From Solirubrobacter deserti (GTDB lineage Bacteria; Actinomycetota; Thermoleophilia; Solirubrobacterales; Solirubrobacteraceae), in assembly GCF_003344625.1 (NCBI RefSeq), contig NZ_QPKJ02000004.1, positions 124,001 through 188,000 of the forward strand: DNA of 64,000 nt, in the 5' to 3' direction. Within the stretch, counting starts at the first letter, position 1, and each line of letters begins with the position of its first letter. Positions 2 to 26,769 of the stretch are shown here, piece by piece. The notes below the pieces were generated by a model. That model saw only the letters and a list, made by a program, of their open reading frames with translations. It did not search any database and was not told the origin of the DNA. A program made the position numbers and the translations under genes.

Positions 2-49
2 GCGACCGCCCGCATGCGGCTCGTGCTCGATCTCGCGGGGGTCTGTTGA
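2..49 (+). CDS. C-terminal end of an upstream gene (partial)
   Basis: An open frame enters from the left edge and stops at TGA 47-49; only about 15 residues are visible (ending LVLDLAGVC), too few to assign a family. The stop overlaps the TTG start of the next gene in a four-base TTGA junction. The two genes are therefore probably cotranscribed and translationally coupled, so this is likely another enzyme of the sugar locus. Confidence 0.5.
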   Translation, partial: ATARMRLVLDLAGVC

Positions 50-834
50 GCCGCCTGTCGCTGAACTCGATGACCGCCGACCGGTGGTCGCTGGTCGAGG
101 TGATCGACGCGTGCGCCGAGTTCGGGATCGAGTGGATCGGGCCGTGGCGCCACAAGCTGGCGGAGATCGGCGTGGAGGAGGCGCGGCGCCGGATCGACGA
201 CGCCGGGCTGCGCGTGTCGAGCTTGTGCCGGGGCGGATTCTTCGCGGCCGGAGGGGCCGAGGAGGACAACCGGCGCGCGGTCGAGGAGGCCGCCGCGCTG
301 GGAACGGATGCCCTGGTCCTCGTCTGCGGGCCGCCGTCGGGCAAGGACCTGGCGGCGGCTCGCGACGTGATCGAGGCGGGCATCGAGCGGTTGCTCCCGT
401 ACGCCAACGAGCACGGCGTGCGGCTGGGGATCGAGCCGCTGCACCCGATGATGATCGGCGAGCGGTCGGCGATCAACACGCTCGGCAACGCGCTGGACAT
501 CTGCGAGCGCCTGGACGATCCGGGCGTCGGCGTCGTGATCGACGTCTACCACACCTTCTGGGACCCGGCCCTCGGCGACCAGATCGCGCGCGCCTCCGGC
601 CGCATCGTCGGCTACCACGTCAACGACTGGCTCGCCGCCACGCGCGACACGGTGTGGGAGCGCGCGATGATGGGCGACGGCATCATCGACCTGCCGGCCT
701 TCACGCGCATGATCGACGCGGCCGGCTACGACGGCCCGATCGAGGTCGAGATCCTCAACCCCGCGATCTGGGACCTGCCGCGCGAGGAGCTGATGCGCAC
801 GACCGTCGAGCGCTTCGAGCGATGCGTCTTCTAG
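46..834 (+). CDS. Sugar phosphate isomerase/epimerase-like TIM-barrel protein
   Basis: A 262-residue protein of the xylose-isomerase-like TIM-barrel family (AP endonuclease family 2 fold), cytoplasmic. The expected metal-binding residues lie at the ends of successive strands: Glu130 (GIEPLHP), Asp166 (VIDVYHTFWDP), His191 (GYHVNDW) and Glu235 (IEVEIL). Relatives isomerise or epimerise keto-sugars, dehydrate inosose or cleave 3-keto-glycosides; the exact substrate cannot be read here. The TTG start overlaps the preceding stop. The neighbouring GMC dehydrogenase, subunit-3-like protein and LacI regulator suggest catabolism of an oxidised sugar or glycoside. The TAG stop lies in the base of the long hairpin at 831-999. 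Confidence 0.85.
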   Translation: MSRLSLNSMTADRWSLVEVIDACAEFGIEWIGPWRHKLAEIGVEEARRRIDDAGLRVSSLCRGGFFAAGGAEEDNRRAVEEAAALGTDALVLVCGPPSGKDLAAARDVIEAGIERLLPYANEHGVRLGIEPLHPMMIGERSAINTLGNALDICERLDDPGVGVVIDVYHTFWDPALGDQIARASGRIVGYHVNDWLAATRDTVWERAMMGDGIIDLPAFTRMIDAAGYDGPIEVEILNPAIWDLPREELMRTTVERFERCVF

Positions 835-999
835 GGGTGCGTGGGAGCATGATCGGTGCGCCTGATGTGGTGCAGCCGCCAGTGCCTCGGGCCGCACGCG
901 ACAGTGATGCGTGCCTCTGGCACGTGAGCGTCGTGGGTGGCGCGAGGTGCCGCGGATGTGCCGCAGCAGGTGTGCCGGGATGCTCCCACGTGCCCCTAG
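831..999 (+). other. Long imperfect RNA hairpin between convergent genes
   Basis: The whole space between the isomerase and lacI folds back on itself. Segments pair as 831-850 with 980-999, 855-879 with 952-976, 882-893 with 939-950, 894-902 with 930-938 and 909-915 with 919-925, closed by a TCT loop. By hand count there are 56 Watson-Crick pairs, 13 G.U pairs and 4 mismatches, plus small internal loops. All 13 non-Watson-Crick pairs are wobbles only if the + strand is transcribed; on the - strand each would be an A.C clash. The stop codons of both flanking genes lie in the outermost stem. It could be a 3'-UTR stabiliser, a terminator, a small RNA or a decayed palindromic mobile element. There is no following T-run and no transposase. 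Confidence 0.75.
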
Positions 1000-1961
1000 C
1001 GGGTGGTGTTGCGGATCGCGAGCGCGTGCGGGAGCACGACGTCCTGCGCGCCGTTCTCGAGCACTGCCTGCGCCGCACGGCGGCCCATCTCGTGCAGCGG
1101 GACGGAGACCGTCGTCAGGCCGACGAAGTGCGCGGGGCGCAGATCGTCGATGCCGGCGACGGACACGTCCTCGGGCACCTTGACCCCGGCGTCGCGCAGG
1201 CGCGTGAGCACGCCGATCGCGACCTCGTCGTTGGCGGCGACGATCGCGTCGGGGAGCGTCCCGCTCGCGAGCAGCTGATTGGCCGCCGCGCAGCCGTCCT
1301 CGTAGGCGAAGCCGCCCGGAATCGTGTCGGTGCCGCCGGCGCGCAGGAAGCCGTTGCGGCGCTGGGCGCTCGTGTGCAGGCCCGCGGGGCCCTCGACGAA
1401 CGTGATGCGATCGTGCCCGCGGTCGCGCAGGTGCGCCGTGATGTCGTGCGCGGCGGCTTCGTTGTCGAACAGGATCGTGGGCGCCTCGAAGTCACGTTGG
1501 GCGAGCGCGAGCACCACCGAGCCGCGGTTGCGCGCGTCCTCGACGGCCGTCGCGAGCGCCTCGGCGCTCGGGTCGTCCACGCGCCCGCTGCCCGCGAAGA
1601 CGATCCCCGCCGCGTGGTAGTCGCGCAGCTGTCGCAGGTGGCCGAGCTCCGCCTCGCTGCCGAGCTCGGCGCTGCAGACCATCGTCAGGTAGCCGAGCTC
1701 CGCGCCGACGGCCTCAACGCCGCGCGCGATCTCGGCGAAGTAGGGATCGACGATGTCGCCGACGATCACGCCGATGATGCGCGAGCTGCGGGTGACCAGC
1801 GCGCGGGCGAGCGCGGAAGGCGCGTACCCGAGCTCCTCGGCGGCTTTCAGCACGCGCCGCCGTGTAGCTTCGGAGACCGGATGCGCGGAGCCGTTGAGGA
1901 CGCGCGAGCACGTGGCGATGGACACGCCCGCGTGACGGCTGATGTCGCTGAGCGACGCCAC
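996..1961 (-). CDS. LacI family transcriptional regulator
   Basis: A 321-residue repressor-type regulator. An N-terminal LacI helix-turn-helix covers about residues 3-25 (LSDISRHAGVSIATCSRVLNG) with the usual hinge helix after it. A periplasmic-binding-protein-like sensor domain follows and contains GVIVGDIVDPYFAEI and the late signature VSVAGIDDL. The GTG start at 1961 was chosen because it places the helix-turn-helix at the very N-terminus; a longer in-frame extension has no family resemblance and would run into the GMC gene. The gene is divergent from the GMC dehydrogenase, with only 31 bases between starts. It therefore probably controls the sugar-oxidation genes on both sides, with a sugar as inducer. 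Confidence 0.93.
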   Translation of the reverse strand: MASLSDISRHAGVSIATCSRVLNGSAHPVSEATRRRVLKAAEELGYAPSALARALVTRSSRIIGVIVGDIVDPYFAEIARGVEAVGAELGYLTMVCSAELGSEAELGHLRQLRDYHAAGIVFAGSGRVDDPSAEALATAVEDARNRGSVVLALAQRDFEAPTILFDNEAAAHDITAHLRDRGHDRITFVEGPAGLHTSAQRRNGFLRAGGTDTIPGGFAYEDGCAAANQLLASGTLPDAIVAANDEVAIGVLTRLRDAGVKVPEDVSVAGIDDLRPAHFVGLTTVSVPLHEMGRRAAQAVLENGAQDVVLPHALAIRNTTR

Positions 1962-16766: not shown

Positions 16767-19700
16767 CTACGGCGTCGTGGTCGACAGCGTGAACGTCAGG
16801 GTCTTGCTGTAGGTCCCGCGACGGAGCGCGTCCGTCTCGAGGATCGACTGCTTGAACGTCAGCGGCACGCTCTCGCCGCCGACCGGCGCGTTCCAGCTCT
16901 TGAGCAGCGTCGGCGTACCCGCCAGCGGCTTCTCGTTGATCTGGAGCGGCTGGGTCAGGGCGTAGGCGCCGTTGACCAGCTTGCCCGTGTTGGTCGAGCT
17001 CGGATCGACGACCGTGAGGGTCGCGTCACCCGCCGTGGAGGTCACCTTCGCCGTGGCACCGACGGAGTAGTCCTTCGTGACGCCCGGGGTGAACGAGCCG
17101 AGGCTCTCCGGGGTGTTGATGGTGAGCGCGAGCACGCCCGGGACCTCGCCGCCGACGACGACGGGGACCTCGGTGCTGTTGCTGCGGACCTTGATCGCGA
17201 CGGACTTCTCCGCCTCGACCAGGCCGGCCTGGTCGGTCGAGCGGAAGCGGATCGTGTGCTCGCCCGCCGGCGCCGCGAACGGCGCCGTGTAGGTCTGCCA
17301 CTCGCCGCCGTCGATCGCGTACTGCGTGCTCGCCACGCCGGAGCCGCCCGTACCGTCGGCACCCGCCAACGTGATGGTCGGCGCCGTCGCGTACCAACCG
17401 TCCTGACCGGGCTGGGCCGAAGCCGTCGCCGTGGTGGTCGGGGCGGCCTTGTCGAGCTTGACCGTGACGGTCTTCTCCGCCTCGACGTTGCCCGCGGCGT
17501 CCTTGGAGCGGTAGGTCACCGTGATGGTGCCCGCGCCGTCCAGGGCGACCGGAGCGGTGTACGCCTGGTAGGCACCGTTGCCGATCTTGTACTCGGTCGT
17601 CGCGCCGGCCTCACTCGCGAGGGTGAGGGTCGGAGCCGACGTGTACCAGCCGTTGGCCCCGTTCGCCGCCGCCGGGTTCAGCGTCGACGTGGTGGTCGGG
17701 GCCTCGGTGTCGCCCGAACCGATGCGGAAGTAGTCGAAGTCCACATTGATCGGGGCGGCCTGCGAGGGCCCGAAGGCCATGAGGCCGATCGCCGGGTTGG
17801 TCAGGTTGACGGTGATCGAACCGGGCGACTTGACCCAGGTCGTGCCGTCCGCGCTGATCTCGCCGGTGTAGGTGTTGCCCTTCTTGATCAGGCGCAGCCA
17901 CCACGTGTCCGTGGCGGACGCCGGCGGCTCGATGTCCTGAGCGCCGGTCGGACCGTAGGCGTTGCCGCCGTTCTCGGCCCGCAGCTCGACGCGGCGCGCC
18001 TTCGCGGCACCCGGCTCGTTGTCGGCCACCACGTCGTACTTGACGTAGTGATCGACGTCGCTGTAGAGCAGGAAGCCCGCCAGCTGCCAGGCGTCGCCGA
18101 GCGGCGCCGTCATCTTCGTCTCAGCCACCCAGTCACCGGCGGGCGGCGTCTGGAGGATGAGGTTCTCCACCGGGTTGTTGTTGGACCCGCTGAAGTCGCC
18201 GTCGAACGTCGTGACCCGCAGCTTGCCGTCCACGAGCTTGGCCCGGTTGGAGTTCCAGCTGTTGATCTTGTCCCAGCGGCAGCCGTCGAGCTCGGTGCCG
18301 TCGAACTCGTCGTTCGCGGCCGGCTTCGGCTTCGCCTCGTCCGGGGTGACCCGGAACCAGTCGAACGCCGCGGTCTTGTTCTGGGCGTCGAGGTCACCCG
18401 CGGCCAGCAGGCCGATGGTGCCGTTGGCCTTCAGCGGCGCGGTGCCGCCCATGTTGGTCCAGTCCGTGCCGTTCGTCGAGTAGGCGCCCGTGAGGGTGCC
18501 GTTCGCGTTCGTCAGGCGCAGATGGATCGTGGCCGGATGGTCGGACGCGACGAACGCGTTGTTGCCGTGGCCCGTGCGCGACCCGTTGGTCTCGCTCCAG
18601 AACTCCACGAAGCGCCGCCCGTCCGTGTGCCGGGTGAAGGAGAGCTTCGTGTAGTTGTTGTCGTCCACGTGGATCACGAGGCCCGCGTACTGCCAGGCGT
18701 TGTCGTGCGAGAGCGTGACCTTGGTGGACGCCTGCCAGTTGCCCGTGGGGGTCTTCTGGCCGACGTGGGAGACGGGCGCCGTGTTGGCGCCGTCGATGTC
18801 GCCGTTGATCACGGCGAGGTTGAGCGCGCCGCCGGTGGTGGCGGGCAGGCTCGCGGCGGGGCCGCGGGCGATCGTCCAACGGGAGCGATTGAGCGCCCCG
18901 TCGAACTCATCCGACAGGGTGGGCGTGCAGCCCGGCGTCGGCGTGGACGGCTCCTCCGGCTCCTCCGGAACCTCGGGATCGGTGTCGAGCGACCAGTTGG
19001 TGAACTTGGCCGTGGCGCGCGTCCCGCTGATGTGCGAGACGACGAATAGGCCGATGTCCTGAACGGTGGTCGCGGCGTTGATGGTGGTCGTGATGCCCAC
19101 CTGGGTCCACGCGACACCGTCACGCGAGCAGTAGACCGAGAACTTCTTGCCGAACTTCTCGACCTTCAGCCACGTCGGGGCGCTGCCGGTGCCACAGCCG
19201 GTGGCCACGGGCTCACCGTTGTCATTGACCTGGCCGTTGCCGCCGGCGTCGTGCATGAACTCGGCCTCGCCGTTGCCCTTCTCGGAGAAGACGAGGTAGC
19301 CCTTGTTGTCGTTGCCGCCACCCTGCGGGATCTGGTTGCGGACGATGATGCCCGCCTTGCCGCTCGCGTGGGTGCCGTCGTAGGAGGCGACCTTCACCGT
19401 GGCGATGAAGTTCTCGCCCACGCCGCCCGGCAGGTAGACCGCGCCGAACTCGTTGGCGGCCTGCCACAGGTCCGCGCCGGCGGCGCTGACCGTGAACTCG
19501 TCGCCGACCTTGTCGAAGGCCGCGTCGACGTTGGCGAACGTCTCCCACGGCGGGCGGATGCCCGTCTCACCGACCGAGAAGCGCACCTTGCGCGAGTCGT
19601 TGGTGAGGTTCTTCGAGTTGGTGGCGACCGCGTGGACGGCGTAGAACTTCTCCGTCGTCTGCGTCCAGTTGACGCTGTACGGCGCCGTGGTGTCCTCGCC

Positions 19701-22700
19701 GATCTTGGTGCCGTCGACGAAGAACTCGACCTTGGTGATCGTGTTCTCGGCGTCGGTCGCGTCAGCGGTGAACGTGACCTGGCCGGCGTCGACCGCGTCG
19801 TTCTCCGCCGGAGCGGTGATCTTCACCGTCGGACGGGTCTCGGGCGCGATGCCCTTGCCGTTGACCTCGAAGAAGTTCAGGCGGAAGTTCGCGGCGCCCT
19901 TGAACACCAGGAACAGGCCCATCGAGGACTTGTCGGCCGGGGCCGGGATGGTGACGTCCTGCCAGCGGTTCAGGCTGCCCGTGTTCGGCACGTTGGCCGT
20001 GCCGAGCAGGTCGCCCGTCGGGCTGTCCTTGCGCAGCTCGATCTGCCCGCCCGCGATCGCCGAGGCGACACGGAAGGTGATCGAGTCGATGCCGGTGAAG
20101 TTGACCGGGTCGTAGGAGGCCCAGTCGCCCGTGTTGAGGCCGGTCAGCGCCGAGGTGGCCTCGGCGTCGCCGGAGGCCTCGGCGGTGTCCACGCCCAGGC
20201 GGCCGTCAGCGTGCTCGGCCTCCTTGCGCTTGGGCTGGATGATCACCGTGTCGGTGCCCGTGAGCGACGGCACCTCGCCGGCGCCGTTGTCGGAGTAGCG
20301 GGCGTCCAGGACGAAGAACACCTTCATGTCCTCCGAGTGGCCCGTGCCGAGGTCGGTCACGACCTCGCCCGTCTTGCCCGTGTTCTCGAGCAGCGGGTGC
20401 GCGTGATCGTCGTGGCCGAGGGCCGGCTGGACGATCAGCTTGTTGTAGTCGACGGTGTCCTCGGCGTCCGTGACCGTGACGTCCCAGCTGACCTTGTCGC
20501 CCCACTCGACGAAGCCGCCGTCGACGGGGCCGTTGAACTTGACCGTCGGCTTGGTGTTGCCGACCGTGACCGGGAGCACCGTGGTGCCGGTCTTGCCGGC
20601 CGGGTCGGTCACGGTCAGGCGGGCCTGGTAGACGCCGCCCGTCGTGTACGTGTGCGTCGGGTTGGCTTCGGTCGAGTCCGTCGAGCCGTTGCCGTCGAAG
20701 TCCCACGCGTACGTGAGCGCGCCGCCCTCGGGGTCGGTCGAGCCGGCGCTGGAGAACGTCACCTGCAGCGGCGTCTTGCCGTTGTCCGGCGTGGCGGAGC
20801 CACTCGCCCGCGGCGAGCGCGAGCCGTTGATGTAGTCGATGCGGTAGATGCCCGAGTTCGGGTTGTCACGGCCGTAGCCGCCGCCCCACTCGAGCGCGTA
20901 CAGCGAGCCGTCGGGCCCGAACGCCAGCGACTGCGGCGCCAGGAACGACGTGTTCGGCATGAACGGGTTGACCTTCTCGACCTTGCCCGTCTCGTCGTTG
21001 AGCTGGACGGTCCAGACGCGGTTCTTCGCCCAGTCGTAGTAGAAGGCCTTGCCGTCGTAGGAGGCCGGGAACTTCGTGTCGGACTCGAGGTTGGCGTCGT
21101 ACTTGTAGAACGGGCCGCCCATCGGGGCCAGGCCGCCGCCGGCGGGGATCGCGCCGACCGAGGTCGTGCGGTAGCCGTACCACATGTCCGGCGCCTTGGC
21201 CGGGGGCAGCTCACGCAGACCCGTGTTCTTGATCGAGTCGTTGATCGGCTTGGCGCAGTCGAAGTACGCGCCGACGGTGACCGGCGTCGTCATGTAGTCG
21301 ACGTCGCGGAACGCCTGCTGGTTGCCCATGCAGAACGGCCAGCCGTAGTTGCCGGCTTCCTTGATGATGTTGTACTCGACGATGCCCGCCGGACCACGGT
21401 TCGGGTTGTCGTTGGAGTTGTCGGGCGCGTAGTCGGCCACGCCGACCCAACCCGTGGTCGGATCCACGGAGAACTTCCACGGGTTGCGGAAGCCCATCGC
21501 GTAGATCTCGGGACGCGTCTTCTCGGTGCCGACCGGGAACAGGTTGCCCGCCGGGATGTCGTAGCCGCCTTCAGCCTTCGGCTTGACGCGGAGGATCTTG
21601 CCGCGCAGGTCGTTGGTGTTGCCCGAGGTCTCGCGGGCGTCCCACATGCGGTCCGCGCGCTCGTTGAGCGGGGCGTAGCCGCCGGAGGGCTCCGAGTGCG
21701 GGTTGACGTCGTCGCCGACGCCGAGCAGCAGGTTGCCCTGGAGGTCGAAGTCCAGGTTGCCGCCGGTGTGGCCGGGCTCGTCCGGCTCACGCGAGGCGGG
21801 GACCTCGATGATCAGCTTCGCCGACGCCGGGTCGATGTCGCTGTTGGCGTCGACCGTGAAGCGCGTGACGCGGCTCTTGAAGTTGGCCGGATCGCTGTTG
21901 TTGGAGGAGTTCGGGGCGTGGTAGACGTAGACCCAGCCGTTCTCGGAGAACTTCGGGTCGACGACGATGCCCATGAGGCCGTCCTCGCCGCCGGAGTACA
22001 CCGGAAGCGTGATGGCGGTCTTGACGTTCTGCGTCTTCGGGTCGTACACGCGGATCTGGCCACGGACGAGCTCGGTGAAGAAGACGCGGCCGTCGGGTGC
22101 GACGTCGAGCGCGAACGGGGCGCTCGTGTTCTCGTCCAGCGCGACCTTCTCGAAGTTCGAGTTGATCGTGCCGCCGCAGTCGCCGGTCTCGACGCCCGCG
22201 GCCCACTTGACGCCGCCGATGATGTGGTCGAGCAGCGCCTTCTCCTGGAAGTGGGCGCCGAAGTGACCCATCGCGGTGACCCAGGCGCGGCCGCCGTCGT
22301 ACGGCTTGCACCACGAGATCGGATGGTCGTAGCCCATCCGGTTGCCGCCGGCGTCGTAGGTCGACTCGTCCATCGAGAGCAGCACGTGGGCGCTGCCGCG
22401 GACGTTGGTCGAGAAGTTGTACCACTCGTCGTTGCGCGTCCAGCGGTCAGCCAGGTGCTTGGTCGACGGGTGCGCCTTGTCCTCGTTGATGACCTGCGCG
22501 GTGAGGCCGCCGACGCCGGAGTTCCACGGCGGCGGGTCGTCGGCCGGAGGCGTCGAGCCGGTGGCGGCGTGACCCGGCATCAGCGAGCCGATCAGGTCGT
22601 CCCACCACTTGTAGTTGCCGCGCATGTCCGTGGCGTTGTGGATGGCGACGATGCCGCCGCCCGCCTTCTGGTACTTCTCCATCGCCGCCTTCTCGGCGGC

Positions 22701-23114
22701 GGTCCAGGGATCACCGGACGTCTGGAACATCACCAGCGCGTCGAAGCGCGCCAGGTCGGTGTCGTTGAAGATGGACGAGTCCTCGGAGAGCTCCGAGGTG
22801 ATGCCGGCCTCCGTGAACGCTGCGCGCAGCAGCGGAGTGCCCTTCTCGATCGCGTCCGTGTGCCGGAACGCGGCGGTCTCACTGAAGATGAGGACGTGCG
22901 CGGGCGCGGCGGGCGCCTCGAGCTTCGACAGCGGCGCCGTCGACGTCCAACCCGGCGTCTGCGCTCCCATGAGCGCCGCGGCGTTCACTTCCGGCGCGTA
23001 ATCGTGGGAATGCGGGGCGCCCGTGTAGTGCGCCGTCGCGGGGGCAGCCAGCAGTCCTGCGCCGGCGGCCGCCAACGCTGCGCTCTTAAGCGCGCGTTTC
23101 CTGAAGCCTCTCAA
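16767..23114 (-). CDS. Giant exported ThuA / sugar-dehydrogenase propeller / PKD / carbohydrate-binding mosaic
   Basis: A 2,115-residue exported protein. Approximate order: signal peptide 1-28; ThuA-like domain 72-305 (HVLIFSETAAFRHTDAIEKG, IVAIHNATD); PQQ-type sugar-dehydrogenase beta-propeller 310-760 (GLMGIVVDPKFSENGWVYVY, PEIYAMGFRNPWKFS); PKD 765-850 (YAWDFDGNGS); beta domain 855-960; CBM6-like 966-1088; Ig-like 1090-1185; concanavalin-like 1190-1375; Pro/Glu linker; two more paralogous concanavalin-like domains (DEFDG starts) 1400-1595 and 1598-1800; two Ig-like repeats 1805-1990; beta tail. It probably binds and oxidises cell-wall or plant sugars; catalysis is unproven. TTG start 23114 has GGAGGAGAAG upstream. 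The 160-base divergent spacer to the next gene holds two direct GTCAGAT copies (23189, 23231). Confidence 0.88.
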   Translation of the reverse strand: MRGFRKRALKSAALAAAGAGLLAAPATAHYTGAPHSHDYAPEVNAAALMGAQTPGWTSTAPLSKLEAPAAPAHVLIFSETAAFRHTDAIEKGTPLLRAAFTEAGITSELSEDSSIFNDTDLARFDALVMFQTSGDPWTAAEKAAMEKYQKAGGGIVAIHNATDMRGNYKWWDDLIGSLMPGHAATGSTPPADDPPPWNSGVGGLTAQVINEDKAHPSTKHLADRWTRNDEWYNFSTNVRGSAHVLLSMDESTYDAGGNRMGYDHPISWCKPYDGGRAWVTAMGHFGAHFQEKALLDHIIGGVKWAAGVETGDCGGTINSNFEKVALDENTSAPFALDVAPDGRVFFTELVRGQIRVYDPKTQNVKTAITLPVYSGGEDGLMGIVVDPKFSENGWVYVYHAPNSSNNSDPANFKSRVTRFTVDANSDIDPASAKLIIEVPASREPDEPGHTGGNLDFDLQGNLLLGVGDDVNPHSEPSGGYAPLNERADRMWDARETSGNTNDLRGKILRVKPKAEGGYDIPAGNLFPVGTEKTRPEIYAMGFRNPWKFSVDPTTGWVGVADYAPDNSNDNPNRGPAGIVEYNIIKEAGNYGWPFCMGNQQAFRDVDYMTTPVTVGAYFDCAKPINDSIKNTGLRELPPAKAPDMWYGYRTTSVGAIPAGGGLAPMGGPFYKYDANLESDTKFPASYDGKAFYYDWAKNRVWTVQLNDETGKVEKVNPFMPNTSFLAPQSLAFGPDGSLYALEWGGGYGRDNPNSGIYRIDYINGSRSPRASGSATPDNGKTPLQVTFSSAGSTDPEGGALTYAWDFDGNGSTDSTEANPTHTYTTGGVYQARLTVTDPAGKTGTTVLPVTVGNTKPTVKFNGPVDGGFVEWGDKVSWDVTVTDAEDTVDYNKLIVQPALGHDDHAHPLLENTGKTGEVVTDLGTGHSEDMKVFFVLDARYSDNGAGEVPSLTGTDTVIIQPKRKEAEHADGRLGVDTAEASGDAEATSALTGLNTGDWASYDPVNFTGIDSITFRVASAIAGGQIELRKDSPTGDLLGTANVPNTGSLNRWQDVTIPAPADKSSMGLFLVFKGAANFRLNFFEVNGKGIAPETRPTVKITAPAENDAVDAGQVTFTADATDAENTITKVEFFVDGTKIGEDTTAPYSVNWTQTTEKFYAVHAVATNSKNLTNDSRKVRFSVGETGIRPPWETFANVDAAFDKVGDEFTVSAAGADLWQAANEFGAVYLPGGVGENFIATVKVASYDGTHASGKAGIIVRNQIPQGGGNDNKGYLVFSEKGNGEAEFMHDAGGNGQVNDNGEPVATGCGTGSAPTWLKVEKFGKKFSVYCSRDGVAWTQVGITTTINAATTVQDIGLFVVSHISGTRATAKFTNWSLDTDPEVPEEPEEPSTPTPGCTPTLSDEFDGALNRSRWTIARGPAASLPATTGGALNLAVINGDIDGANTAPVSHVGQKTPTGNWQASTKVTLSHDNAWQYAGLVIHVDDNNYTKLSFTRHTDGRRFVEFWSETNGSRTGHGNNAFVASDHPATIHLRLTNANGTLTGAYSTNGTDWTNMGGTAPLKANGTIGLLAAGDLDAQNKTAAFDWFRVTPDEAKPKPAANDEFDGTELDGCRWDKINSWNSNRAKLVDGKLRVTTFDGDFSGSNNNPVENLILQTPPAGDWVAETKMTAPLGDAWQLAGFLLYSDVDHYVKYDVVADNEPGAAKARRVELRAENGGNAYGPTGAQDIEPPASATDTWWLRLIKKGNTYTGEISADGTTWVKSPGSITVNLTNPAIGLMAFGPSQAAPINVDFDYFRIGSGDTEAPTTTSTLNPAAANGANGWYTSAPTLTLASEAGATTEYKIGNGAYQAYTAPVALDGAGTITVTYRSKDAAGNVEAEKTVTVKLDKAAPTTTATASAQPGQDGWYATAPTITLAGADGTGGSGVASTQYAIDGGEWQTYTAPFAAPAGEHTIRFRSTDQAGLVEAEKSVAIKVRSNSTEVPVVVGGEVPGVLALTINTPESLGSFTPGVTKDYSVGATAKVTSTAGDATLTVVDPSSTNTGKLVNGAYALTQPLQINEKPLAGTPTLLKSWNAPVGGESVPLTFKQSILETDALRRGTYSKTLTFTLSTTTP

Positions 23115-24153: not shown

Positions 24154-26370
24154 GTGGACCCCGTGCTGACCGGCGCGACGCCGCGCCTCACCGCCGAGGA
24201 CGCGATCGAGATCGGCGCGGCGCTGTTCGGCGTGCGCGCGCCGGAGGCCCGCGACCTCGGTAGCGAGCGCGACCGCACGTTCCGGCTCGGCTCCGAGGCG
24301 ATCCTGAAGGTCTCCAACGCGGCCGAGGATCCGGACGTGCTAGACATGGAGGCGGCCGCGGCGCTGCACGTGACCGCGGTCGATCCGGAGCTGCGCGTCG
24401 CGCTGCCGTGGCGGCCGGTCGCGGGCGGTGATCCGGGCACAGCGCGCCCGGGGGACGATCCGGCGGCGCTGCGGGCGCGCTGGGGCGAGCACTGGGTGCG
24501 GCTCTATGACGTGCTGCCCGGCAGCAGCCGGATCGAGGCCCGCGCGCTGTCGGACGCGGCGCTGGCGGGATGGGGCGAGACGACGGCGCGGCTCGGGCAA
24601 GCGCTGCGGGCGTTCACGCACCCGTGCGCGACGCGGACGATGGCGTGGGACGTCCAGCACGCGCTCGCCGCGCGCGAGCTGCTCGGCGACATCCGTGACG
24701 CTCACGCGCGCGCGTGCGTGGAACGGGTGCTGGACGCGTTCGCGGTGCGCGTGGCGCCGGCGTGGCCGCGGCTACGGGCGCAGGTCGTCCACACCGACCT
24801 GACCGTCGACAACACGCTCACCGACGAGCACGGGCGGATCACGGGGGTCATCGACTTCGGGGACATGAGCCACTCGGCGCTCGTGAGCGACCTGGCGTCG
24901 GTGCTGGACTCCGTGTGCGGCGGGCGCGACGGGGACGAGCTGCTGCGCGCGGCGCGGCTCGTGCTCGACGGCTACCAGCGGCGGGTGTGGCTGGAGGAGC
25001 TCGAGCTGGAGGTGCTCGGCGTGGCGTGGGCCGCGCGGGCCGCGGTGACGGTCGCGATCAGCTCCTGGCGGGTGGCGCAGGGGCTCGAGGAGGCGGCGTT
25101 CGCCGAGCGCTACAACGCGATCGCGCTGCGGACGATCGAGAGCCTGGAGGCGTACGGGTGGGACGGCGTCGCGCGGGCGCTCGGTGCGGCCGGCGCGCGC
25201 CGCCCGGACCCGTCGCTGGCCGCGCGCCGGGCGGCGGCGTTCGGGCCGGCGATCGACCCGCTGTTCTACGCGTCGCCGATCGAGGTCTCCCACGCCGAGG
25301 GCGTCTGGCTCCATGACACCGAGGGCCGCGCGCTGCTGGACGCGTACAACAACGTGCCGTGCGTGGGGCACGCGCACCCGCGCGTGACGGCCGCGGTCGC
25401 GCGCCAGAGCGCGCTGGTCAACACGCACACGCGCTACCTGCACCCGAACGCGATCGAGCTCGCGGAGCGGCTGACCGCGACGTGCCCGCCCGAGCTGGAC
25501 ACGGTGATGCTGGTCAACTCGGGCTCGGAGGCCAACGACCTCGCGTGGCGGATGGCGACCATGGCGACCGGCAACCGGGGCGGGCTGTGCACGACGTTCG
25601 CCTACCACGGCATCACCGAGGCGATCGCCGCCCTGTCTCCCGAGGGCTGGTTCGACGAGCCCAAGCCGGCCCACGTCGAGACCTGGGACCCGTTCGACGC
25701 CGGCGCGTTCAGCGCCGCCGTCGCCCGGCTCGACACGCCGCCGGCGGCCGCCATCCTCGACGGGATCGTCACCAGCGACGGCATCGCGGAGCTCGATCCC
25801 GCGACCGTGCGGGGCTGGGTGGACGCGACCCGCGCCGCCGGCGGGCTGTGGATCGCCGACGAGGTCCAGTCCGGCCACGGCCGCACCGGCGAGGCGCTGT
25901 GGTGCTTCGAGCGCTTCGGGGTCGTCCCGGACTTCGTCACGCTCGGCAAGCCGATGGGCAACGGCCATCCGGTCGCGGCGGTCATCACACGCCGCGCGAT
26001 CGTCGAGGCGCTGGTCGGCCGCGCGACGCTGTTCAGCACGTTCGGCGGCAACCCGGTGAGCGCCGCGGCCGCGCTGGCCGTGCTCGACGTGATCGAGGAC
26101 GAGCGGGTGCTCGAGCGCGTGCGGCGCACGGGCGCCGCGCTCGGTGAGGCGCTGCGCGCGGTGGCGCCGGCCGACGTGCGCGGCGTCGGGCTCGCGTGGG
26201 GTGTCGACCTGCCCGACGCCCGCGCGGTGCGCGACCGCATGCGCGAGCTCGGCGTGCTCGTCGGCACCACCGGCCGCGACGGCAACACGCTCAAGATCCG
26301 CCCGCCGCTGGCGTTCGAGGAGACCCACGTCACACAGCTCGCCGAGGCGCTGAGCCGCGCGCTAGGGTGA
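24154..26370 (+). CDS. Fused aminoglycoside-phosphotransferase-like kinase and class III PLP phospho-lyase/aminotransferase
   Basis: A 738-residue bifunctional protein. Residues 1 to about 330 are a choline-kinase/APH-like kinase with the catalytic loop HTDLTVDN (His213, Asp215) and the metal loop VIDFGD. Residues about 345-738 are a fold-type I class III PLP enzyme with LWIADEVQSGHGRTGE and PLP Lys599 in LGKPMGNGHP. In animals separate members phosphorylate 5-hydroxylysine (HYKK) and eliminate phosphate from phospho-hydroxylysine or phosphoethanolamine (PHYKPL, ETNPPL). A fusion implies substrate channelling: phosphorylate an amino-alcohol, then eliminate. Many bacterial fusions carry an M23 domain between the two halves; it is absent here. 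GTG start; substrate unknown. Confidence 0.87.
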   Translation: MDPVLTGATPRLTAEDAIEIGAALFGVRAPEARDLGSERDRTFRLGSEAILKVSNAAEDPDVLDMEAAAALHVTAVDPELRVALPWRPVAGGDPGTARPGDDPAALRARWGEHWVRLYDVLPGSSRIEARALSDAALAGWGETTARLGQALRAFTHPCATRTMAWDVQHALAARELLGDIRDAHARACVERVLDAFAVRVAPAWPRLRAQVVHTDLTVDNTLTDEHGRITGVIDFGDMSHSALVSDLASVLDSVCGGRDGDELLRAARLVLDGYQRRVWLEELELEVLGVAWAARAAVTVAISSWRVAQGLEEAAFAERYNAIALRTIESLEAYGWDGVARALGAAGARRPDPSLAARRAAAFGPAIDPLFYASPIEVSHAEGVWLHDTEGRALLDAYNNVPCVGHAHPRVTAAVARQSALVNTHTRYLHPNAIELAERLTATCPPELDTVMLVNSGSEANDLAWRMATMATGNRGGLCTTFAYHGITEAIAALSPEGWFDEPKPAHVETWDPFDAGAFSAAVARLDTPPAAAILDGIVTSDGIAELDPATVRGWVDATRAAGGLWIADEVQSGHGRTGEALWCFERFGVVPDFVTLGKPMGNGHPVAAVITRRAIVEALVGRATLFSTFGGNPVSAAAALAVLDVIEDERVLERVRRTGAALGEALRAVAPADVRGVGLAWGVDLPDARAVRDRMRELGVLVGTTGRDGNTLKIRPPLAFEETHVTQLAEALSRALG

Positions 26371-26376
26371 AGCCAC

Positions 26377-26447
26377 CCGGACGAGACGCGCGCCGTACCC
26401 GGTAAGCCAAGACGACGCGCACCCTTTCACTCGTCATGGAGGTGCGT
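26377..26447 (+). promoter_or_regulatory. Guanidine-III riboswitch and expression platform
   Basis: The aptamer core at 26377-26420 carries the three conserved blocks of the guanidine-III (ykkC-III/PRF) class: CCGGACGAG (26377-26385), GCCGTACCCGGT (26392-26403) and AAGACG (26409-26414). CCGG 26377-26380 can pair with CCGG 26399-26402. The pseudoknot pairs 26388-26396 with 26412-26420, with one C.A mismatch. The platform is visible: CGCACC 26418-26423, partly in the pseudoknot, can instead pair with GGTGCG 26441-26446, covering the GGAGG ribosome site (26438-26442). Guanidine should favour the pseudoknot and free the site, a translational ON switch. Confidence 0.88.
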
Positions 26448-26451
26448 ACCG

Positions 26452-26769
26452 ATGGCCTGGATTCTCCTCGTCGTCGCCGGTCTGCTGGAAACCGTGTGGG
26501 CGCTCGCGCTCAAGGAGTCCGACGGCTTCTCGAAGCTCGGCCCGACGCTGGTCTTCGGCGTCGCGATCGTCGCGAGCATGGTCCTGCTCGCGCTGGCCCT
26601 GCGTGAGCTGCCCGTCGGCACGGGCTACGCCGTGTGGACCGGCATCGGCGCCGTCGGCGCCGCGATCGCCGGCATGGTCTTCCTCGGCGAGGCGGCCGTC
26701 CTCGGCCGGATCCTCCCGATCGCACTGATCGCGGTCGGGATCGTGTGGCTGGCGCTGAGCCACGAGTAG
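26452..26769 (+). CDS. sugE: SMR-family guanidinium exporter (SugE/Gdx)
   Basis: A 105-residue, four-helix small multidrug resistance protein. The essential membrane glutamate is Glu13 in LVVAGLLETVWALALK, followed by the SugE-type KESDGFSKLGPT segment and helix 3 with GTGYAVWTGIGAVGAA. Gdx/SugE members form antiparallel dimers that exchange guanidinium for two protons. The guanidine-III riboswitch directly upstream fixes the substrate class far better than sequence alone. The ATG at 26452 has GGAGG nine bases before it. The VOC gene follows two bases after the stop. Confidence 0.93.
   Translation: MAWILLVVAGLLETVWALALKESDGFSKLGPTLVFGVAIVASMVLLALALRELPVGTGYAVWTGIGAVGAAIAGMVFLGEAAVLGRILPIALIAVGIVWLALSHE

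Follow-up and report, generated by a model that had tools for sequence, protein, structure and literature searches.

A dispersed hairpin repeat with one-sided wobble pairs, probably a MITE-like mobile element, at gene stop codons of Solirubrobacter

A long hairpin between two convergent genes

The 64,000-nt stretch of Solirubrobacter deserti DNA analyzed here (hereafter, the window), which matched an S. deserti CPCC 204708 contig at 100% identity across 4008 bases, includes near its start two convergent genes, coding for a xylose-isomerase-like TIM barrel protein and for a LacI-family regulator, with a long palindrome spanning the spacer between them (Table 1). The palindrome folds as a single unbranched hairpin of 74 pairs with a 3-nt loop, comprising 58 Watson-Crick and 16 G.U pairs and eight small interruptions on the + strand, close to the approximately 56, 13 and 4 (mismatches) counted in an earlier, sequence-only reading. 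The MFE of the + strand RNA was -133.9 kcal/mol (z -13.9), compared with -89.0 kcal/mol (z -5.5) for the - strand, and none of 200 shuffled sequences was equally stable in either case. The 169-base hairpin proposed by that reading is therefore real, being more stable than shuffled sequence, and its two strands fold unequally. The same asymmetry was obtained with DNA parameters (-68.6 for the + strand vs. -49.1 for the - strand). All departures between the arms had been said to favor the + strand, which is correct overall, with a possible exception at the interruption 880-881 (CA) opposite 951 (C), where an A may face a C. The stop codons of the two opposing genes do lie in the outermost stem, as had been noted.

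Table 1. Features of the hairpin locus, with positions as in the window.
Feature	Position	Strand	Evidence
Full extent of the aligned hairpin element, CTAG target at either end included	831..999	+	Fold; blastn and covariance model family; empty sites
Left CTAG; the TAG within (832-834) is the stop of the + strand gene	831..834	.	Single CTAG at the G004 empty site
Right CTAG; the - strand lacI-type gene stops here (TAG, read from CTA at 996-998)	996..999	.	
Hairpin left arm	835..915	+	Fold
Hairpin right arm	919..995	+	Fold
Apical stem-loop, loop 916-918	908..926	+	Fold; near-identical apical sequence in copies of a second genus (G008)
Left side of wobble pairs 868-963, 871-960 and 872-959	868..872	+	Wobble in 53/54, 53/54 and 49/54 copies
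Left side of wobble pairs 894-938 and 898-934	894..898	+	Wobble in 53/54 and 42/54 copies
Flanking xylose-isomerase-like TIM barrel gene, stop in left CTAG	46..834	+	Pfam PF01261
Flanking LacI-family regulator gene, stop in right CTAG	996..1961	-	Pfam PF00356/PF13377
Element terminal repeat, CTAGGRGTYYGTTGA-type ends			

A repeat family with conserved pairing

The hairpin is one copy of an interspersed repeat, usually of about 165-171 nt and judged to be non-coding from its size and structure. In a blastn search with the spacer, covering its own genome and 40 relatives and scoring up to about 20 candidates in each, more copies were found in the former, and matches in all five other Solirubrobacter genomes, the one in G002 being weak (60 nt). 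A covariance model built from 54 copies detected the element in 9 of 41 genomes, including the six Solirubrobacter genomes. The resulting set consisted of 97 copies, distributed as 10 in the S. deserti genome (G000; two of them short), 4 in G001, 7 in G002, 15 in G003, 12 in G004, 44 in G005, 2 in G008, 2 in G010 and 1 in G012, which corresponds to 4 to 44 copies per Solirubrobacter genome among those examined. Further matches in G008 and G010 lie outside this set, and the loci around them were fetched. Most copies (86) measured 160-180 nt and the rest 78-153 nt. In a sample of the class searched with stricter filters, which missed the match in G012, the element was present in 13 of 299 genomes and 6 of 114 genera, one distant family included; diverged copies thus occur in other genera of the class. 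Short palindromes of approximately 50-100 nt with similar ends, lacking the core, were found in G002 and G005, and short forms of the element also in G000, G001, G004 and G005. Loci L140-L144, retrieved by word matches, had no significant score against the covariance model, and a further model (R2, from the mixed alignment A2) was discarded, given its poor consensus of 23 pairs. Among the titles listed by searches of open-access literature, none describes the element.

Two loci from G005 showed particular arrangements: L063 carries two hairpin copies 927 nt apart in the same orientation, and at L087 (1872-2086) the hairpin measures 215 nt and has an additional internal segment.

Over the 54 aligned copies, standard pairs made up 96.9% of cells (88.1% when shuffled), changes on both sides were seen at 34 of 56 pairs, and cells with double changes amounted to 256, compared with 68.6 in shuffles. 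When the partner column was shifted by one to three positions, pairing fell to 29-50%, a comparison in which the actual structure has the advantage of being derived from the same 54 sequences. The outer stem, formed by the terminal inverted repeats (17 pairs), was paired in 95.0% of cells, and was less conserved than the inner stem and several wobble pairs. Wobbles (U.G or G.U) were near invariant at columns 39-136, 42-133 and 66-111 (53 of 54 copies each), and frequent at 43-132 (49/54) and 9-167 (46/54). Certain mismatches are conserved along with the pairing and these wobbles, and the wobbles favor one strand.

The strand bias was evident at several levels. Counts over the family (74 copies, two alignments) gave 790 G.U cells vs. 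11 A.C cells which, although the cells are not independent, replace the odds of 1 in 8192 that the sequence-only reading had attached to the arm differences. Among changes from Watson-Crick pairs restricted to a single copy, which may predate insertion, 25 led to G.U and 7 to A.C (p = 0.002), indicating that the wobble bias also holds for recent changes; a further 37 led to another Watson-Crick pair and 34 to other mismatches. The better fold was on the same (+) strand in all 97 copies, the + strand of divergent copies being assigned by the covariance model, which itself prefers that strand. Diverged copies (G002, G008, G010, G012 and the distant family) had 8-18 G.U pairs in the better fold, compared with 0-4 for the opposite strand, with the exception of the partial matches L133 (5 vs. 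3) and L226 (5 vs. 2); at L223, the better-folding strand was opposite to the matched one. These one-sided, near-invariant wobbles provide comparative evidence that it is one folded strand of a mobile element on which selection acts, and the many natural copies are a resource for testing the role of that strand.

Empty sites, target duplication and stop codons

Four sites (the window site, L014, L010 and L028) were each compared with five genomes by the positions of their flanks, and in the 15 assessable of the 20 site-by-genome comparisons the element was absent (as judged by coordinates, with sequences inspected for most). The window site was empty in all five sister species, its two flanks being contiguous or at most 35 nt from each other, and L014, located between same-direction genes, was likewise empty in all five (sequences inspected for four at each of these sites), while L010 was empty in three genomes and L028 in two, the others being not assessable (two and three, respectively). 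Both flanks were shared between species in one pair only (L024 and L083) of the 97 copies, based on blastn of 800-nt flanks. The element is therefore dispersed, and it was lacking wherever the orthologous position was assessable. Its absence from the window gene pair in five of five sister species, and its presence beside other genes, do not support a role specific to the isomerase and lacI genes, and two functions that had been suggested for it, namely a 3'-end stabilizer or terminator of the isomerase mRNA and a small regulatory RNA antisense to the end of lacI, lack support on these grounds. A third suggestion, a decayed palindromic mobile element, held in part: the palindrome appears to be mobile, but it is not decayed, since pairing is kept by compensatory changes over dozens of copies. 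Likewise, spacers without pairing do exist in relatives, where the whole element is missing, whereas the element family itself keeps its pairing.

At the window site, G004 has a single CTAG within which the two convergent stop codons overlap, and this tetranucleotide is the one found on both sides of the element in the window. The other sister genomes inspected have CTAG or CTAA at the stop of the first gene, with no overlap of stops. Considering 95 copies, the two ends carried an identical NTAN 4-mer in 20, against a mean of 11.3 after shuffling and a count not reached in any of 2000 shuffles; in 5 of these the matching 4-mer was other than CTAG (0.86 in shuffles). CTAG was present at both ends of the six full-length G002 copies, and TA adjoined both ends in 34/95 copies and neither end in 13/95. 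These sequence comparisons favor a putative 4-bp duplication of the CTAG/TTAG/GTAA type over a 2-bp TA duplication; with identical 4-mers in just 20 of 95, the ends of most copies have drifted. The element is thus short and dispersed, has terminal inverted repeats, and shows the target duplication and empty sites expected of a MITE. We consider it very probable that it is a non-autonomous mobile element, MITE-like and built like ERIC, with its whole body forming one hairpin.

A neighboring gene ends inside the element in 85 of the 97 copies, 12 copies having no gene end inside. Out of 136 genes converging on the element as aligned (target copies included), 120 stop inside and 16 outside; the former comprise 86 with an overlap of 2-6 nt, 28 ending at the TGA of nt 13-15, and 6 reaching deeper. 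Whether they arrive from the left or the right, most genes reaching a copy end in the outer stem, either with a TAG at the junction or with that TGA. The 86 short-overlap stops were mostly TAG (65, compared with 11 TGA and 10 TAA), in contrast with 250 of 728 control genes using TAG in the window and 39 G005 regions, which are centered on copies and hence not element-free (Fisher p about 2e-13). Reading frames of the genes entering the element were also unevenly represented (61:44:15; p about 1e-6). At L014, the first gene is two codons longer than in G003 and then uses the TGA of the element as its stop. CTAG is a rare word: the 64 kb contain 18, whereas base composition predicts 154. Those not belonging to the element (16) fall on stop codons (5), inside genes (8) or between genes (3), and a CTAG common to both genes was found in 14 of 117 convergent pairs. 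The position on stop codons would fit a combination of rare CTAG targets and the harm of insertions elsewhere. It suggests a nearly invisible mode of insertion, in which the ends hit a rare CTAG and a stop codon is left on both strands.

Candidate enzymes and the role of the folded strand

Several transposase families were searched as possible partners, and no autonomous partner with matching ends was found in Solirubrobacter in these non-exhaustive searches. IS630-type genes (PF13358) had no match in the six Solirubrobacter genomes, and were present in G008 and G010. The ends of two IS630 elements from G008 start with CTAGTG, as do several G010 hairpin copies; the likeness was otherwise weak (best p = 0.002 of 60 comparisons), and was considered unconvincing after that number of comparisons. 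Y1_Tnp genes, found in five of the six Solirubrobacter genomes, showed neither consistent co-occurrence with the element (no match in the carriers G002, G008, G010 and G012) nor adjacency to it (of 14 matches, 12 loci were fetched and all lacked the element), and the flanking arrangement of REP/RAYT systems was not seen. PF01609 transposases were detected in six of eight genomes, G001 and G003 having none. None of 18 such loci held a pair of matching element ends: exact words from the ends occurred as single, unpaired matches in four (L271, L276, L278 and L282, all from G008 or G010), and the bracketing inverted repeats listed for each locus (up to four) did not match the ends of the element. 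Two loci of one family, L277 (G010) and L279 (G008), lie at CTAG with a different repeat. Searches with the terminal repeat yielded, among the matches listed, short palindromes, single ends and near-control matches, and inverted partners searched for within about 3.5 kb of nine single ends did not exceed control level.

The two G008 elements (L183, 1322-2514, and L185, 1306-2499) are assigned to the IS630 family (NCBIfam), measure approximately 1190 bp and have CTAG at both ends. A further insertion sequence (PF01609, L279) adjoins L185, starting at the CTAG they share.

For the MITE-like element, a putative transposase would act in trans on the terminal inverted repeats, the target being suggestive of a CTAG/YTAR- or TA-specific DDE enzyme. 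Rare CTAG/YTAG sites would be the targets of insertion, a sizeable share of them stop codons, where copies may persist because insertion is nearly silent for proteins. Selection would act on the + strand in its folded, single-stranded form, most likely RNA arising from transcription through the element and acting on transcripts, by analogy with ERIC and NEMIS. According to a systematic survey (PMC2267715), both strands of such repeats normally fold unless G.U pairing is essential. The element would add a widely spread family of mobile hairpins to a little-studied class of Actinobacteriota.

Among known systems, the closest in build is ERIC (IRU, RU-1), a 127-bp enterobacterial repeat that is also small and dispersed, with one long stem-loop and TA ends. 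The comparison was one of architecture and strand asymmetry, based on a single E. coli copy, whose wobbles were likewise one-sided (-56.5 kcal/mol with 5 G.U vs. -40.0 with none). The review PMC2229807 reports orientation-dependent effects of ERIC on mRNA stability. This one-sided wobble, together with the mRNA effects reported for ERIC and NEMIS, places the element tentatively beside ERIC in mechanism, as an element of MITE kind with a putative partner enzyme. Unlike ERIC, it is GC-rich, 165-171 nt long, with CTAG-type ends that hold fixed gene stops, and it belongs to another phylum. In the NEMIS/Correia elements of Neisseria mainly the terminal repeats pair, whereas in Solirubrobacter the whole body does. 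These elements, about 107 or 155 bp long, are similar in their TA ends and target duplication, and an effect of their RNA on neighboring mRNAs via RNase III has been proposed (PMC2229807). The same source describes RUP of Streptococcus pneumoniae as a 107-bp repeat inserted at TA, for which mobilization in trans by IS630-Spn1 is assumed; the lack of an IS630-family match in the six Solirubrobacter genomes sets the present element apart. REPs are likewise short hairpin repeats with a tetranucleotide tag. They differ in their length of 20-40 bp (PMC3733652), and no link of our element to Y1 genes was found.

Other readings of the folded strand were considered. There is some small likelihood that the folded + strand itself drives the spread, as a bacterial SINE-like structured RNA or single-stranded DNA hairpin whose conserved wobbles, bulges and apical loop would be recognized by a trans-acting enzyme leading to insertion at stop codons. 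A similarly small chance is given to selection on DNA, with the top strand folding while single-stranded, during replication or transfer, and its hairpin recognized by an enzyme such as a Y1/RAYT transposase, as in IS200/IS605 and REP. The much better DNA fold of the + strand, the resemblance of the conserved mismatches to recognition features and the Y1_Tnp genes of five Solirubrobacter genomes are consistent with this, but the carriers without such genes and the Y1 loci without the element argue against it, as does the apparent duplication of the target, given that Y1 enzymes are not known to produce one. Orientation relative to replication in G005 was 17 vs. 13, with no usable GC skew.

It is improbable that the pairing is kept by a mutational process, namely template switching between the arms, in place of selection on RNA. 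Template switching in RNA hairpins is described in PMC8794818, and the 37 single-copy changes between Watson-Crick pairs do alter both sides together, some pairs switching by transversion without a G.U intermediate. However, this process would erase wobbles, several of which show almost no variation and are confined to one strand; it may contribute alongside selection.

Equally doubtful is a main function as 3'-end stabilizer or terminator of the upstream gene's mRNA. The extreme stability of the fold and the location at gene 3' ends (47 of 97 copies between convergent genes, compared with 117 of 724 gene pairs in the copy-holding control regions) would suit such a role. Nevertheless, copies occur in both orientations, with 61 converging genes on the left and 75 on the right (p = 0.26), and in tandem spacers 27 of 41 copies were antisense and 14 sense (p = 0.06), so that the strong fold is not preferentially in the mRNA of the upstream gene. 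These orientation counts make a simple mRNA terminator unlikely. In addition, the window copy lacks the T-run of an intrinsic terminator after 999, where the sequence reads CGGGTGGTGTTGCGG, sister species have the same gene pair without the element, and termination alone would not require a near-invariant inner stem. A terminator or stabilizer of the isomerase mRNA as main function was rejected on the orientation counts, the missing T-run and the empty sites.

An independent, trans-acting small RNA gene spread by copying is the least probable reading: the conservation of the inner stem and of several wobbles above that of the outer stem would agree with it, but no Rfam family reached the gathering threshold in the element (best MIR918, 30.9 bits vs. 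a threshold of 268), the examined copies number 4 to 44 per Solirubrobacter genome, and forms with inner deletions, devoid of the core, exist.

Elsewhere in the window, a large gene on the - strand (16767-23075) codes for a 2102-residue protein with ThuA, glucose/sorbosone dehydrogenase, CBM6, PKD and GH43_C2 domains. A Guanidine-III riboswitch (Rfam RF01763, 45.3 bits) was identified at 26361-26421 on the + strand, followed by a gene of the small multidrug resistance family (26452-26769; PF00893) that plausibly codes for a guanidine exporter.
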